From: a bacterium
GTDB taxonomy: Bacteria; Vulcanimicrobiota; Vulcanimicrobiia; Vulcanimicrobiales; Vulcanimicrobiaceae
DNA length: 64,000 nt
Assembly: GCA_021805775.1 (NCBI GenBank)
Contig: JAJZED010000003.1
Coordinates: forward strand, 62,001 to 126,000
Direction of reading: 5' to 3'
The notes under the pieces: model-generated
Told to the model about the DNA's origin: nothing
Database searches by the model: none
What the model saw: only the letters and a program-made list of their open reading frames with translations
Position numbers and translations under genes: made by a program
Shown: positions 1 through 6,867 of the stretch, in pieces
Layout of the letters: each line of letters begins with the position of its first letter
Position numbering within the stretch: position 1 is the stretch's first letter

Positions 1-1814
1 TGCGCTTGACGTAAGATACGTTCGAGCTCACCCGGCCAAACCGGCGCCTGCGCGTAGCGGCACTCCGCTGCGGCGCCGAGCCGCTGCAATTCTCCGGGCC
101 AGATCGACGGAACGCCCCAATAATAATCGAGGCCGACAAAATCGAGCGTGCCGATGCATTCGCGCGGACAGAGAAACTCAGGGAGTTGCCCGAGCATCGC
201 GAGGTTCCACCAATTCGTACCGACGAGCGTGCCGAACATCGCGAGCGTGCGACGCCACTTATCGAAAATTTGCAGCCAGGAACGCGTTGCCGTAAGGCGA
301 TCGCTCTGACCGAGCACGACGAACTCGATATTCGGGGAATCGCTTTGCAACACTTCACGTGCGATCGCTTTTGCGAGATCGATCTCGAGGCCGCTATATC
401 CCCCGCGGCCGTCGGCTTCGCAGAGCCCCGGCACGCCGGGATGAATACCGATGCGCATCCGCCCGCGTTTTCGGATCTGCACGACGGAGGCTCCGACTTC
501 GCGCTTCGGGTCGGGCGGCGCCACGGTAGCGTTCCGCCCGACATGGCTCAGGGTCGCGCGCCCATGCGCGTGCGGCAAATCCGGGTGCTGCGAACGCAGC
601 GTCGCCACGGCGCGGTCGACCGCGTCGAGGAGTGCGTGATGCCCGGGCGGCACGGCGACGGCGTAATGGCGTGCGTATCCCGGAAGCAGCGTCACCGTAA
701 GCTCACCGTTTGCATGCGGAGCGACCAAGGCTTGGTCGCTGTAAAGCAGCGCGATAGTCCCCGCTCGAAGCGCTGCGAGCGCCGCGTTCATATCGGCGAA
801 ATACAGCACGGTCGCGTCGGGGAAGCGCGCGCCGACGCTCTCCGAGGCCTCGGAGCTCTTCAACACACCGACCGTTACCTTCCAATTCGCAAGCGACGCG
901 GGAATCGTCGTGGTTTTCACGTGCAGCGCGGCAGCGTGCGTCGCGAAATACGGCTCCGAGAAAAGCACCCGCTCCATACGTGCGTGCGTGATCGCAATTT
1001 GCGCGACCGAACAATCGACGCGTCCGTTTTCGACGATTCCGGCCTGCACGATGCGCGATGCATGCTTGCGTATCTCTTCGGGTGATTTGGCGTGCGTCGC
1101 GCTGCGATCGACCAGTTTCTGTAACCAACGCGGAAGCCCGAGAACCAGCGGGTTCGCGCCGACTTTTGCGGTGGGGACGATCGCGCGAATCGCCGCGCGC
1201 GTGCGGGAATGCGCGAGCAACAGGTTGGGAATGAGGCGCAACACCGCGTCCATCTGCTCCTCGGGAATCGTATCGGGCGGCTGCCCCGGCGGCATTGGGT
1301 AAGCACGCATCCAAAAGCCCTTGATAAATCCATAGACGAGTTGATTCGGCTCGTTGACGCTTACGTAGTAATCGATGAGATCGCCAAGCCGTCGCGCCAC
1401 CTGCTCTGCGTAGCGCGCCATACGATCGGGGAAGCCTTTGTCGAGCAATCCCGCGCCGCCGCCGGCCGCCTGCACGTGCAGCGGCCAGGTGTTGTGATGG
1501 ATCGTAACGACCGCTTGCATGCCGGCTGCGCGCAGATACTCCAGCAACTCGCGATAGTGCGCGAATGCCTCCTCGCTCCACACTCCGGGTTCGGGCTCGA
1601 GGCGCGCCCAGGAGAGCGAGAGGCGGAAGATCGTGCAACCGAGCCCTTTGGCGAGATCGATATCTTCGCGATAGCGATTCCAGAAATCGGTCGCTTTTCC
1701 GCGCTCGGTGAGCCCGCGCGAGCGCTCCCAGAGATCGCGAATATCGTCGTTGCCGTCGTAGGCCTCACATTGATGGTCGGCCGTCGCAACGCCGAAGTGC
1801 ATGATCTCGCTCAT
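1..1814 (-). CDS. Family 1 glycoside hydrolase with inserted, permuted substrate-binding-protein domain (3' end off window)
   Basis: The reading frame opens at ATG 1814 and has no stop down to base 1, so the C-terminus lies outside the window. The first ~200 residues match GH1 beta-glycosidases: FGVATADHQCE near the start, a W-rich barrel segment (FRLSLSWARLEPEPG) and the acid/base motif NEPNQ. Near the window edge GH1 returns with DFVGLDYYWG. Between them, residues ~245-500, lies a family 3 solute-binding-protein domain: DCSVAQIAIT, FSEPYF and ALLDAVDRAV come first, and the usual N-terminal piece (RMRIGIHPGVPG, YSGLEIDLAKAIA) comes after, the reverse of normal order. The GH1 nucleophile motif is not seen and should lie beyond base 1. 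GH1 enzymes hydrolyse beta-glycosides; whether this one is catalytic, or uses the insert to sense a ligand, is unknown. No signal peptide, so probably cytoplasmic. Confidence 0.8.
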   Translation of the reverse strand, partial: MSEIMHFGVATADHQCEAYDGNDDIRDLWERSRGLTERGKATDFWNRYREDIDLAKGLGCTIFRLSLSWARLEPEPGVWSEEAFAHYRELLEYLRAAGMQAVVTIHHNTWPLHVQAAGGGAGLLDKGFPDRMARYAEQVARRLGDLIDYYVSVNEPNQLVYGFIKGFWMRAYPMPPGQPPDTIPEEQMDAVLRLIPNLLLAHSRTRAAIRAIVPTAKVGANPLVLGLPRWLQKLVDRSATHAKSPEEIRKHASRIVQAGIVENGRVDCSVAQIAITHARMERVLFSEPYFATHAAALHVKTTTIPASLANWKVTVGVLKSSEASESVGARFPDATVLYFADMNAALAALRAGTIALLYSDQALVAPHANGELTVTLLPGYARHYAVAVPPGHHALLDAVDRAVATLRSQHPDLPHAHGRATLSHVGRNATVAPPDPKREVGASVVQIRKRGRMRIGIHPGVPGLCEADGRGGYSGLEIDLAKAIAREVLQSDSPNIEFVVLGQSDRLTATRSWLQIFDKWRRTLAMFGTLVGTNWWNLAMLGQLPEFLCPRECIGTLDFVGLDYYWGVPSIWPGELQRLGAAAECRYAQAPVWPGELERILRQA

Positions 1815-1890
1815 GCGCGCACCTTCGCCGCAGGCGGGAGAGCTCCGCCGCCGTAGGCGCGAGGATGCGTCGAGCCGAAGCGAGCCCGGC

Positions 1891-2622
1891 ATGAGATTCA
1901 CCAATAAAACCTGCATCGTCACCGGTGGCGGCTCGGGAATCGGACTGGCCGCTTGCTTGCAATTCGCCCGCGAGGGCGCGCGCGTTGCGGTCGCCGATCT
2001 GCACGTCGAAGCGGCGCAGCAGACCGTCGCCACGATCGTCGCCGCGGGCGGAACGGCGCTCGCACTCGCCGTCGATGTCGGCAACTCCGCGCAAGTGCAA
2101 GATGTAATCGCGAAGACGGTTGCCGCCTATGGACCGATCGACGCCATCGTCAACGACGCCGCGATGATGACGTTCACGCCGATCGTCGATATCGCCGAAG
2201 CGGATTTCTTTCACGTCATTACGACGAATTTAGGATCGGTCTTTTACTTCTGTAAGTACGGCATACCGCACATGAACGACGGCGGCGCGATCGTCAATTT
2301 AAGTTCGGTGCACGCGCACGCGACTACCGCAAACGTCGTTCCGTATGCATCGTCGAAAGGTGCCATCGAGGCGTTTACGCGCGGGCTCAGCATCGAACTC
2401 ACCGCGCGCAAGATTCGCGTGAATGCAGTCGCTCCGGGAGCGGTCGATACGCCGATGCTCTGGAATAACCCGAACGTGAAGAGCGGCGCCGAGAAGGTCA
2501 CCGGCGCAATCGGCAAGCCCGAAGATCTCGCCGCCGCGATCTGTTTTCTCGCATCGAGCGATGCGGCATTCGTTAACGGCACGACGCTCGTCGTCGACGG
2601 CGGACGCCTCGCGAAGCTGTGA
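1891..2622 (+). CDS. Short-chain dehydrogenase/reductase (SDR)
   Basis: A 243-residue classical SDR. Visible are the Rossmann glycine motif TGGGSGIG at residues 11-18, an acidic residue after beta-2 (ADLHVE, D36) that suggests NAD preference, VNDAA in place of NNAG at ~88-92, and the Ser139-Tyr152-Lys156 catalytic set (NLSS, PYASSK). The C-terminal NGTTLVVDGG is typical of the glucose dehydrogenase / 3-oxoacyl reductase branch. The frame is open back to 1801, but the homologous protein begins at ATG 1891. It is transcribed divergently from the GH1 gene, with 76 bases between starts, so the two may share a control region and a carbohydrate-related role. The substrate cannot be told from sequence. 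Confidence 0.85.
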   Translation: MRFTNKTCIVTGGGSGIGLAACLQFAREGARVAVADLHVEAAQQTVATIVAAGGTALALAVDVGNSAQVQDVIAKTVAAYGPIDAIVNDAAMMTFTPIVDIAEADFFHVITTNLGSVFYFCKYGIPHMNDGGAIVNLSSVHAHATTANVVPYASSKGAIEAFTRGLSIELTARKIRVNAVAPGAVDTPMLWNNPNVKSGAEKVTGAIGKPEDLAAAICFLASSDAAFVNGTTLVVDGGRLAKL

Positions 2623-2646
2623 AGGCGAGGCGCTCCTCGGGGATGC

Positions 2647-5600
2647 CTACCCCTGGAGCGCCTCGGCGATAACGCGTTCCTGTTCGACGGCGTGCGCGCC
2701 GGGGTAACCCTCCGACGGGCTCGCGCGGTACGGGCGCCCGACGTAATCGATCTCCAGCGGACGTTCGAGCCGTTCGAGGAGACGCCGCCGCACGTACGCA
2801 CGCGCGCCCATGTTTTTCGGCTCTTCTTGCACCCAGACCAAGCGTTTGAGTTTGGGATAGGTCGCAAGCAGCGCGTTCATCTCCGCGCCCGGCATCGGCG
2901 AGAGCAACTCGATGCGCACGATCGCCGTCTTGCTGCGGTCGGCGTACTGCGGTGCCGCGACGAGATCGTGATAGATTTTACCGGTGCAGAGCACGATGCG
3001 CTCGATCTTCGATTTATCGGTGACGCTGGGATCGTCGATCACCGGTTGGAACGAGCTGGTCGCCATCTGGTCGATCTCGCCGTACGCGGCTTCGAGACGG
3101 AGCAACGATTTCGGCGTCATTACGACCAGCGGCACCGGATTCGGCGAACCCGCCTGCAAGCGCAGTAGATGGAAGTGATTTCCGGCCGTCGATGGATAGG
3201 CGACGCGGAGATTTCCTTCGGCGGCGAGTTGCAAGAAACGCTCCAAGCGCGCGCTGGAATGTTCGGGGCCCATGCCTTCGTAACCGTGCGGTAAGAGCAT
3301 CGTGAGGCGCGAGGTCTGCCCCCACTTCGCCTGGCCGGCGGCAATAAATTGATCGATGATGATCTCGGCACCGTTGACGAAATCGCCGAATTGCGCTTCC
3401 CACAACACGAGCGCTTTCGGCAACGTCACCGCGTAGCCGTATTCGAAACCGAGGCAGGCGTACTCCGAGAGCGGGCTATTGTGAATCTCGAATGAAGCCT
3501 TCGCATCGGCGAGGTGCGCGAGCGGAACGAACGTTGCATTCGTCGCAACATCGTGTAGCGCCGCATGACGGTGGCTGAACGTGCCGCGCCCGGTATCCTG
3601 CCCGGTAATGCGGATCGGCACGCCCGAGGTTACCAATGACGCGAACGCCAGCGCCTCGGCCATGCCCCAATCGACGAGGCCTTTCTCGGCAATGAGCGCG
3701 CGGCGGCGCTGGAATTGCGCGATGAGTTTTTTGTTGACCGTGAAGTCGGCGGGGACGCGGACGACCTCTTCGCTCCACGCGAGCAGCTTTTTGCGATCGA
3801 TCGGCTGCAAGGTAACCGTCTCGATCGGCGTCGCCTGGCCGATTTTTTCGATAAGGCTCTTGCCGCCGTCGGCCTTGACGCGCGCGTTCGCGCTTTGCAA
3901 CGCCGCCGTCGCCTGTTCGATCATTTCATTAGCGCGTTCGGCCGTAATGATTCCCTGCGCGACAAGTTTATTGGCGAAGAGTTCGCGCGCGGTGGGATGG
4001 CTCTTAATTTTGTCGTAGAGCAGCGGCTGCGTGTACGCCGGCTCGTCCTGTTCGTTGTGGCCGAAACGGCGGTAACCGATGAGATCGATAATGACGTCGC
4101 GTTTGAACTGGCGTCGGAAATCGACCGCTAAGCGCACCGCGTCGATGCAGGCATCGACGTCGTCGGCATTGACGTGAACGATCGGGACGTCGAAGCCCTT
4201 CGCGAGATCGGAGGCGTAACGCGTCGAACGATCGTCGTGCGGATCGGTGGTGAAACCGACCTGGTTGTTGGCGATGATATGAACCGTGCCGTCGGTGGTG
4301 TACCCGGCGAGCGACTGCAGATTGAAGACTTCGGAGATGATGCCTTGCCCGGTAAAGGCGGCGTCGCCGTGAATGAGAATCGGCACCGCGCGATTGCCGT
4401 CGCGACCCGGGGCACCGGCGGCGTGATCGCTCTGAAGCGCACGCGCCGAGCCTTCAACGACCGGATCGACCGCTTCGAGGTGGCTCGGGTTGTGAGCGAG
4501 GATGACGGTTATCTCGCGCCCATCGTGCGCGCGGTAGATGCCGGTCGCGCCTTGGTGGTACTTCACGTCGCCGGTGACATCGTCGTCGCCGACCTCACCG
4601 CGTAGGTGCGCCGCTTCGAACTCGCCGAGCAATTCGTCGTAAGGAAGATTGACGACGTGCGCGATCACGTTGAGGCGACCGCGATGCGCCATGCCGAGCA
4701 CGGCGTTGCCGACGCCTTCGGCTGCGAAGCGTTCGAGCATCTCTTCGAGCATCGGGACCATCGCGTCGAGCCCTTCGCCCGAGAAGGTCTTCTGTCCGAG
4801 GTACGTTTTGCGCAAGTAGCGTTCGAAGGTTTCACCGCGCGTCAAGCGCTCCAACAATTGCTGTTGATGCTCGCGCGAAAGCGGCGTGCGGTGCGAACCG
4901 GTCTCGATCGCGTCGCGCATCCAACGGCGCTGTTCGCGATTGGAGATGTGTTCGAACTCGTAGGCAAGCGAGGAGCTGTAGGTTTCGCGCAGGTGCGGCA
5001 GCACCTCGGCGAGCGTGTTCCCGGGCACCTTCACGCGCAACACGCTTGCCGGAATTGCGTTCTGCATCGCATGCGTGAGCCCGTAGGTCGCGGGATCGAG
5101 CGATTCGTCGCCGGGCGGAGTCGAGCCGAGCGGATCGAGATTCGCAGCGAGGTGGCCGTGCGTGCGGTATGCCGCGACGATCGCCGCAGCGGCGGCGACA
5201 CCGCGCATCATTTCGTCCGAGGGAGCTCCCGAAGAAGCACTTGCAATCGGCACCGGCGCCTTGGCACCGAGCTGCGGCGCCGGGCCCGCGACGAGCGCGA
5301 GCGTCGCAAACGCGCGTTCGTAGAACTCGCTCTCGCCTTGCAGCAAGCGATCGATGCGGCGCAAGAATTCACCGGACTGCGCGCCTTGAATGACGCGGTG
5401 ATCGTAGGTGTTCGTCATCTGCATGACTTTACCGATCCCGAGGCTGCGCAACGTCGTTTCGTCAACGTTGGTGAAGCCGGCCGGGTAGCCGATCGCTCCG
5501 GTAGCGAGAATCGAGCCTTGCCCCGCCATCAAACGCGGAATCGAGGCGACGGTGCCGATGCCGCCGGGGTTGGTAAGCGTAAGGCTCGCGCCGGTTAGAT

Positions 5601-6867
5601 CGTCGGCGACGAGTTTATTTTCGCGCGCTTTCGCGACGAGCGCATCGTACGCCGAGACGAAGCCGGCGAAATCGAGTTTATCAGCGTTCTTGATGACCGG
5701 CACGACGAGGAAACGCGTGCCGTCTTTGCGTTCGCTGTCGACGGCGAGCCCGAGGTGGACGCCCGGTTCGACGCGCGTCGGCTTCCCGTTCTCGCTGCGG
5801 AAACTGTAGGTAACGAAGGGCATCTCGCTTGCCGCCTGCACGATCGCAAACGCGATGAGATGCGTGAACGAGATTTTCTCGTTGCGTTTCGCGGCTTTGA
5901 TTGCGGCATTGAGTTCGCGACGGCGCGCGTCGAGCACGTCGACGCCGAGTGTGCGGAATGAAGTTGCGGTCGGAATGCTGAGGCTCTGCTCCATGTAACC
6001 GACGAGCGCGGCGGCCGGCCCTTGCAGCGGCGTGCGCTTGACATCGGCGGCGAGCGGCGGCTGCGGGGCGCCTTTGCTCGCGGCGGCGCTACGCGCGCTG
6101 CCGTTGCGAATCGCGGCGGCGATATCGTTGCGCAACACCATGCCGTCGGGGCCGGTGCCGGGAACGGAGTGGAGATCGAGTTCGAGTTTGCGCGCGATGC
6201 GTTGCGCTTGGTGCGAAGCGACGAGCGCGCCACTGCGCGCGGGCGCAGCAACGGGTACGGCGCTTGCCGCGGGTTTTGCAGCGGGCGCGGATTTCGCGGG
6301 AGCTGACGATACGGCGGCGTTCTCATCGAGTTGCATCAGCACCGCGCCGACGGCGAGCGTTTGCCCCTCGGCGACCAGAATCTCGGTGACGACTCCGGCG
6401 GCGGGTGCGGGCACTTCGACATCGACCTTGTCGGTCGTGACATCGACGAGTGGGTCGCCTGCGGCGACGGCATCGCCGACTTTTACGCGCACCTCGACAA
6501 CCGAGCCCTCGGTCACCGATTCGCCCATCTCCGGCAACGTGACGTCAACGATCTTTGGTGGGCCGACGGGGGCAGCGGGCGCAGCGGCCTTCGCAGCGCC
6601 ATTACCGGCGGCGGCCTTCGCGGAGGTATCGATCTCGGCGAGCAGGGCGCCGACGGCGATGCTCTCCCCCTCGTCCCCGTGGAGGCTCGTGATGACCCCG
6701 GAGGCGGGCGCCGGCACTTCGACGTCCACCTTATCGGTGGTGACGTCCACGAGCGGTTCGCCCTGAGCAATGAAATCGCCGACGCGCTTGCGCCACTCGA
6801 CGATGGAACCCTCGGCGACCGACTCGCCCATCTCCGGGAGGGTCACCTGCACCAAGGTGTCAGCCAC
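2647..6867 (-). CDS. kgd: 2-oxoglutarate dehydrogenase fusion: two lipoyl domains + E2 succinyltransferase + E1
   Basis: A 1406-residue multienzyme protein of the TCA cycle. Two lipoyl domains come first, each with the lipoylation motif TTDKVDV (Lys46 and about Lys153), joined by Ala/Pro-rich linkers. A peripheral-subunit-binding segment follows (~215-255), then an E2 acyltransferase core with the active-site stretch YDHRVIQGAQSG near 490, and from ~560 to the end a thiamine-diphosphate E1 with HRGRLNVIAHV near 725. E2-core plus E1 in one chain is known from mycobacterial Kgd/SucA. That protein lacks its own lipoyl domains, which this one has. GTG start at 6867. No E3 (dihydrolipoamide dehydrogenase) is next to it, so E3 must come from elsewhere. 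It would convert 2-oxoglutarate and CoA to succinyl-CoA; E1 alone could give succinic semialdehyde. Confidence 0.92.
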   Translation of the reverse strand: MADTLVQVTLPEMGESVAEGSIVEWRKRVGDFIAQGEPLVDVTTDKVDVEVPAPASGVITSLHGDEGESIAVGALLAEIDTSAKAAAGNGAAKAAAPAAPVGPPKIVDVTLPEMGESVTEGSVVEVRVKVGDAVAAGDPLVDVTTDKVDVEVPAPAAGVVTEILVAEGQTLAVGAVLMQLDENAAVSSAPAKSAPAAKPAASAVPVAAPARSGALVASHQAQRIARKLELDLHSVPGTGPDGMVLRNDIAAAIRNGSARSAAASKGAPQPPLAADVKRTPLQGPAAALVGYMEQSLSIPTATSFRTLGVDVLDARRRELNAAIKAAKRNEKISFTHLIAFAIVQAASEMPFVTYSFRSENGKPTRVEPGVHLGLAVDSERKDGTRFLVVPVIKNADKLDFAGFVSAYDALVAKARENKLVADDLTGASLTLTNPGGIGTVASIPRLMAGQGSILATGAIGYPAGFTNVDETTLRSLGIGKVMQMTNTYDHRVIQGAQSGEFLRRIDRLLQGESEFYERAFATLALVAGPAPQLGAKAPVPIASASSGAPSDEMMRGVAAAAAIVAAYRTHGHLAANLDPLGSTPPGDESLDPATYGLTHAMQNAIPASVLRVKVPGNTLAEVLPHLRETYSSSLAYEFEHISNREQRRWMRDAIETGSHRTPLSREHQQQLLERLTRGETFERYLRKTYLGQKTFSGEGLDAMVPMLEEMLERFAAEGVGNAVLGMAHRGRLNVIAHVVNLPYDELLGEFEAAHLRGEVGDDDVTGDVKYHQGATGIYRAHDGREITVILAHNPSHLEAVDPVVEGSARALQSDHAAGAPGRDGNRAVPILIHGDAAFTGQGIISEVFNLQSLAGYTTDGTVHIIANNQVGFTTDPHDDRSTRYASDLAKGFDVPIVHVNADDVDACIDAVRLAVDFRRQFKRDVIIDLIGYRRFGHNEQDEPAYTQPLLYDKIKSHPTARELFANKLVAQGIITAERANEMIEQATAALQSANARVKADGGKSLIEKIGQATPIETVTLQPIDRKKLLAWSEEVVRVPADFTVNKKLIAQFQRRRALIAEKGLVDWGMAEALAFASLVTSGVPIRITGQDTGRGTFSHRHAALHDVATNATFVPLAHLADAKASFEIHNSPLSEYACLGFEYGYAVTLPKALVLWEAQFGDFVNGAEIIIDQFIAAGQAKWGQTSRLTMLLPHGYEGMGPEHSSARLERFLQLAAEGNLRVAYPSTAGNHFHLLRLQAGSPNPVPLVVMTPKSLLRLEAAYGEIDQMATSSFQPVIDDPSVTDKSKIERIVLCTGKIYHDLVAAPQYADRSKTAIVRIELLSPMPGAEMNALLATYPKLKRLVWVQEEPKNMGARAYVRRRLLERLERPLEIDYVGRPYRASPSEGYPGAHAVEQERVIAEALQG

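Follow-up and report, generated by a model that had tools for sequence, protein, structure and literature searches.

The window, i.e. the whole 64,000-nucleotide stretch of DNA analysed here, opens with a gene that combines a glycosidase family 1 (GH1) barrel with a solute-binding protein (SBP) domain. Positions 1..1814 of the minus strand were found to constitute a single open frame without a break, belonging to a 709-codon minus-strand gene, the 3' last ~315 bases of which lie to the left of the window. According to a Pfam profile search, this is the sole GH1 gene found in the 2.6-Mb genome. The order of Pfam matches along the encoded protein (P0001), GH1–SBP_bac_3–GH1, bears out the initial annotation, which had described one unbroken frame with GH1 at both ends and a binding domain in between. 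The features of the locus are as follows, in window coordinates (equal to L003 coordinates minus 6000) except for the first entry:

G000:C12:61685-63814 (= L003:5685-7814), minus strand: whole GH1-SBP fusion gene, 709 aa, P0001
1..1814, minus strand: in-window portion of the GH1-SBP fusion gene, with 315 more bases left of the window
1..257, minus strand: C-terminal part of the GH1 barrel, residues 520-604 in the window (Pfam, model, conservation)
273..1049, minus strand: inserted circularly permuted solute-binding domain, residues 256-514 (Pfam and PDB matches, AlphaFold2, Foldseek; block missing from the homologues L096 and L097)
273..491, minus strand: natural N-terminal half of SBP lobe 1, residues 442-514, placed last and including R506 (Pfam, alignments)
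492..587, minus strand: low-confidence linker joining the natural SBP C and N termini, residues 410-441 (pLDDT)
588..671, minus strand: SBP return strand and C-terminal helix, residues 382-409 (model, Pfam)
672..917, minus strand: SBP lobe 2, residues 300-381, with putative ligand residue Asp360 (codon 735-737) (block missing from lobe-2-deleted homologues)
918..1049, minus strand: rear half of SBP lobe 1, residues 256-299, with putative ligand residue Arg279 (codon 978-980) (alignment to 5eyf and GlnH, invariance 45/45)
1095..1814, minus strand: N-terminal part of the GH1 barrel, residues 1-240, β1 to β5 and the next helix (Pfam, model, conservation)
1350-1352, minus strand: codon of E155, in the acid/base motif N154-E155-P156 of the N-terminal barrel part, which also carries Q15 and H107
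1815..1890, no strand: short intergenic spacer separating the divergent GH1-SBP and SDR genes
1891..2622, plus strand: SDR-family dehydrogenase, 243 aa, divergent partner conserved beside the fusion gene

Just left of the window, a LOG-type (TIGR00730) gene on the plus strand (L003:5141-5713) was observed in convergent overlap with the 3' end of the fusion gene, while L003:3-1349 and 1353-3494 (minus strand) encode adjacent paralogous long proteins, which are apparently secreted and look tandem-duplicated.

The Glyco_hydro_1 profile (PF00232) was matched in two stretches (E 2.3e-42, 145.4 bits versus a cut-off of 22.6), the first covering residues 7-221 (profile 11-219) and the second corresponding to profile positions 337-451. 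The acid/base was identified as E155 (NEP) and the nucleophile as E617 (ENG). All nine GH1 positions checked, i.e. Q15, H107, N154, E155, Y565, E617, W656, E663 and W664, were identical in 45 of 45 full-length homologues, with E617 and W656/E663/W664 being encoded outside the window. The (β/α)8 fold was supported by an AlphaFold2 model of the full protein, built on 45 homologues (pLDDT 88, pTM 0.89), for which the best Foldseek matches were GH1 enzymes (E 1.9e-18, prob 1.00). The neutral-glycone residues of GH1 are intact, and the NCBI GH1 β-glucosidase model TIGR03356 scored 160.7, under its equivalog cut-off of 478.5. P0001 comprises an intact GH1 barrel with predicted retaining β-glycosidase activity on a neutral sugar, the sugar substrate itself being presumptive. 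Its barrel fold, NEP and ENG motifs and neutral-glycone residues are shared with the GH1 family (PF00232; e.g. BGL167, 4r27, and Thermotoga BglA, 1od0). In contrast to the solved GH1 members matched, in which no such insert was seen, P0001 has about 260 residues between β5 and α5.

Between the two GH1 stretches, SBP_bac_3 (PF00497) was matched with an E-value of 1.1e-12 (48.2 bits versus a cut-off of 26.4), in an order that is permuted relative to the profile: residues 261-408 correspond to profile positions 54-118, and residues from about 455 to 511 to positions 2-54. When the insert was rearranged in silico to the normal order, a single SBP_bac_3 match spanning profile positions 2-118 was obtained (54.1 bits), in agreement with the permuted binding domain proposed by the initial annotation. 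Similarly, the insert of the Fischerella homologue L069 matched the same PDB chains in separate stretches in its native order; upon rearrangement, it gave one unbroken match to the glutamate-bound SBP 5eyf (144 bits, E 4e-41), with AncQR, GlnH and Peb1A as the next closest solved SBPs by sequence. The domain order was thus established as lobe 1b, lobe 2, C-terminal helix, linker and lobe 1a, and the insert was confirmed, as judged from its sequence, to be complete and truly circularly permuted. The new SBP termini fall inside lobe 1, not between the lobes. Two motif assignments had to be revised, as FSEPYF, previously taken for a second-lobe motif, represents the end of lobe 1, and ALLDAVDRAV, previously taken for a hinge motif, represents the C-terminal helix. 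The model, in which both junctions lie in lobe 1, is in line with the notion that permutation lets the two insert ends meet on one loop.

In the full-length model, barrel strand 5 (217-221) precedes the insert, and a helix at 513-528 and strand 6 (560-567) follow it, which places the insert in the β5-α5 loop. This loop lies on the catalytic face of the (β/α)8 barrel, where the GH1 β5 loop adjoins the aglycone side of the pocket. As only GH1 proteins were present among the best 50 Foldseek matches listed for the full model, the insert was modelled separately (pLDDT 83), and its best match was 5eyf (E 6.5e-11). Several amino-acid SBPs superposed on this model with an rmsd of about 1.9-2.4 A over about 150 columns, in keeping with an alignment to which the colinear part of a permuted insert alone can contribute. 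The linker was modelled with low confidence, with pLDDT below 50 at residues 435-437 of the full model and at insert residues 173-188 of the insert model. A two-lobed clamp was thus found in the structure prediction suggested by the initial annotation, disposing of the possibility that the insert has no binding-protein fold.

Arg279 was invariant in the 45 full-length homologues and Asp360 was retained in 44 of them; they align with Arg169 and Asp250 of Mycobacterium tuberculosis GlnH, which hold the α-carboxyl and amino groups of the ligand (PMC6069109). R506, which is invariant in full forms except L117 and L118, aligns with GlnH Arg147, which binds the side-chain carboxylate of the ligand (PMC6069109). 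Among the closest solved SBPs, 5eyf holds glutamate, GlnH binds Asp/Glu/Asn and Peb1A binds Asp/Glu. The insert is therefore likely to bind a free amino acid, probably glutamate- or aspartate-like in Cyanobacteria; specificity may differ in Eremiobacterota. The assignment is less certain for the window protein because the lobe-2 side-chain contact, GlnH Trp232, is unconserved (mostly Tyr/His in Cyanobacteria, variable in Eremiobacterota) and because Gln occupies the GlnH Thr162 position in Eremiobacterota, this position being mostly Thr/Asn in Cyanobacteria. The value of R506 as proof of an acidic ligand is weakened by its retention in all lobe-2-deleted forms (see below). Within the genus, the insert had a dN/dS of about 0.13 and the GH1 part one of 0.03-0.07, indicative of purifying selection on the insert that is weaker than that on GH1; the insert also diverges faster than GH1 (40% versus about 60% identity). 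The two-lobed clamp, the ligand Arg and Asp and the Arg147 equivalent are common to the P0001 insert and the family-3 amino-acid SBPs (PF00497; 5eyf, M. tuberculosis GlnH 6h1u and Peb1A 2v25). Whereas the latter are exported, separate proteins in normal N-to-C order, the P0001 insert is permuted and internal to an enzyme, lacks an export signal and is not itself a subunit of a transporter or receptor.

The full architecture, uninterrupted by stops, was observed in many genomes from within the family, the order and the class (Eremiobacterota), as well as in Nostocales and other Cyanobacteria, Chloroflexota and one Proteobacteria-labelled metagenome-assembled genome (MAG), although MAG taxon labels of homologues may be wrong. 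Dozens of unbroken homologues (43-98% identical) share the same permuted order, including those of the isolates Nostoc, Fischerella and Chlorogloeopsis. The distribution in Cyanobacteria is patchy (4 genomes among 245 sampled from the order), and no plasmid copy of the cyanobacterial homologue was found. Chimeric assembly, a reservation attached to the initial annotation, did not survive the homologue search that it had called for: the same junctions recur across phyla in dozens of independently assembled genomes, so that an assembly chimera or annotation artefact is ruled out with virtual certainty. Copies in Westiellopsis (L093:7953-10174) and an Eremiobacterota MAG (L090:8001-9956) are split over two frames, reflecting either a frameshift or a sequencing error.

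Reduced forms were also identified. The insert is cleanly missing from three Chloroflexi-type sequences (L096-L098), with a gap corresponding to query residues 255-515 that is less sharp in L098, and nine Eremiobacterota sequences lack lobe 2 only, cut at the two hinge strands (FSEPY...YAVA). Several lineages without lobe 2 still keep the GH1 active site; in one lobe-2-deleted homologue (L046:3732-5483), the acid/base Glu is replaced by Ala (NAP for NEP), and this GH1 is possibly inactive or altered. Lobe-2 deletion requires four changes on the GH1-core tree, and a single origin was rejected by the AU test (p = 0.0036, for a group defined by the trait itself); lobe 2 has been deleted independently at least three separate times. 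The insert-free forms nest among insert-bearing ones in the best GH1-core tree, and their placement outside, as the ancestral state, is compatible with the AU test (p = 0.19). Because insert-free and lobe-2-free relatives exist, the binding clamp is modular and dispensable; dispensability of the sensor part in some lineages fits a regulatory module and also a decaying one.

This loss pattern bears on a first alternative, namely that the insert derives from a binding domain but now serves a structural purpose, shaping the aglycone pocket as a lid or dimer interface, with sensing lost or irrelevant in many members. Such a role, which we regard as possible though clearly the less probable reading, would accommodate the repeated deletion of lobe 2 with an intact GH1 site and the faster evolution of the insert. 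It would likewise accommodate the fact that Arg279 (8 of 9) and R506 (9 of 9) are kept in lobe-2-deleted forms, because of which their conservation may be partly structural, and that L117 and L118 (Chloroflexota-class) keep the insert but lack the ITxxR motif and R506. However, a mere lid needs no two-lobe clamp with both ligand residues, and Asp360 of lobe 2 is still conserved in 44 of 45 lobe-2-bearing forms, across phyla on long branches. L117 (115-2343) and L118 (115-2301) represent distant full-length homologues, the insert of which is no longer recognised by Pfam SBP_bac_3.

A divergent SDR gene (70-100% identical over its length) adjoins the fusion gene in 30 Eremiobacterota loci, typically with a spacing of 20-100 bases, and is present at most lobe-2-deleted loci too. 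Its product resembles glucose 1-dehydrogenase/FabG-type SDRs and falls under every curated cut-off among the matches listed. In Nostocales, the neighbours encode a GMC oxidoreductase, α/β-hydrolases and ADC-like, patatin-like, metallo-β-lactamase-fold and other SDR proteins. The fusion gene has GMC-like oxidoreductase and ADC-like genes nearby in an Eremiobacterota (L048:3247-4971) as well as a Nostoc (L070:1157-3496) sequence, possibly as a cross-phylum set. A family-31-like glycosidase gene (L114:3809-5170), recognised by eye, lies directly downstream of one cyanobacterial homologue, with a similar gene upstream of another homologue (L087). In the window, the SDR gene is followed by a 1406-aa ORF (2647-6867, minus strand) in which two lipoyl domains are joined to an acyltransferase and to the E1 part of a 2-oxoglutarate dehydrogenase; by eye it resembles actinobacterial Kgd, and it adjoins the SDR gene in this genus only. 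In actinobacteria, the same enzyme activity is under the control of GlnH, an Asp/Glu sensor related to the insert; the connection is probably a coincidence.

Despite the close sequence kinship of the insert with SBPs of ABC transporters, a transport role, in which the SBP, with a glycosidase attached, would pass its solute on to an ABC permease, is very improbable and was rejected. P0001 has no signal peptide and begins at the first barrel strand, its conserved neighbours are the SDR and metabolic enzymes, and no ABC permease or ATPase was seen among the recurring neighbours of the fusion gene. The missing signal peptide points to a cytoplasmic location of P0001.

The explanation that we prefer, at about even confidence, is that P0001 acts in the cytoplasm as a GH1 enzyme under the control of a free amino acid, which gates it through the permuted SBP in the β5-α5 loop; ligand identity, coupling and the sign of the coupling are presumptive. 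The SBP domain would act as an allosteric sensor on the catalytic face, adjoining the pocket on its aglycone side. Binding of a free α-amino acid, probably Glu/Asp-like, would close lobes 1 and 2, and closure would change access to, or the geometry of, the aglycone subsite and so set glycosidase activity; an effect on this subsite is proposed because both junctions lie in lobe 1, at a predicted position beside the active site. Gating would be favoured by the conserved ligand residues, purifying selection and the confident two-domain model, and further supported by the cross-phylum layout and by the insert-free and lobe-2-free forms, which suggest a module on an otherwise complete enzyme. It would be weakened by the lineages that have lost lobe 2 or the Arg yet keep the GH1 active site. 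The same loop position, predicted by the model and lying beside the aglycone side in GH1 barrels, together with the retained amino-acid ligand residues and the intact neutral-glycone residues, could also suit a substrate-capture subsite that grips the amino-acid part of a substrate or product (a glycosyl-amino acid or an amino-acid-bearing aglycone) and offers it to the GH1 pocket. This is rather unlikely, as the catalytic residues persist in relatives without the insert or without lobe 2, so that such a subsite is not required there, and as the ligand of GlnH-type SBPs is buried between the closed lobes (PMC6069109), leaving little room for a linked sugar.

Amino-acid gating by P0001 would have engineered counterparts, such as RG13, a circularly permuted β-lactamase inserted in MBP (PMC3375305), and chimeras of a xylanase and xylose-binding protein (PMC4896006, PMC4536891). 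In published switches of this type, ligand modulates enzyme activity (PMC3375305, PMC4896006). Like P0001, they join a periplasmic-type binding protein and a hydrolase by domain insertion, in RG13 with circular permutation, but they are man-made with the enzyme as the insert, whereas P0001 is evolved, with the permuted binding protein inserted in the enzyme. Chorismate mutase-cyclohexadienyl dehydratase fusions are likewise natural fusions with an SBP-like fold (cyclohexadienyl dehydratase); they are reported to be exported and bifunctional, and the SBP fold carries an enzyme, whereas the P0001 insert is a putative sensor (PMC10520331). GH1 and SBP_bac_3 are old families. No description of a natural GH1-SBP fusion, with a permuted SBP or otherwise, or of a naturally permuted periplasmic binding protein was found in the open-access literature searched; one may exist elsewhere.

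On balance, we see a roughly equal chance for and against a widespread natural family in which a permuted Venus-flytrap sensor in a GH1 barrel would directly gate intracellular glycoside hydrolysis, coupling amino-acid (nitrogen) status to sugar or aglycone release, and from which the clamp lobe has been removed repeatedly, presumably with control lost. The insert-bearing, clamp-deleted and insert-free forms allow a direct comparison of how allostery may be gained or lost by domain insertion. The fusion family suggests that evolution has arrived where the engineers of ligand-switched hydrolases did, and it may tie glycoside turnover to the amino-acid level inside the cells of Eremiobacterota and Nostocales.
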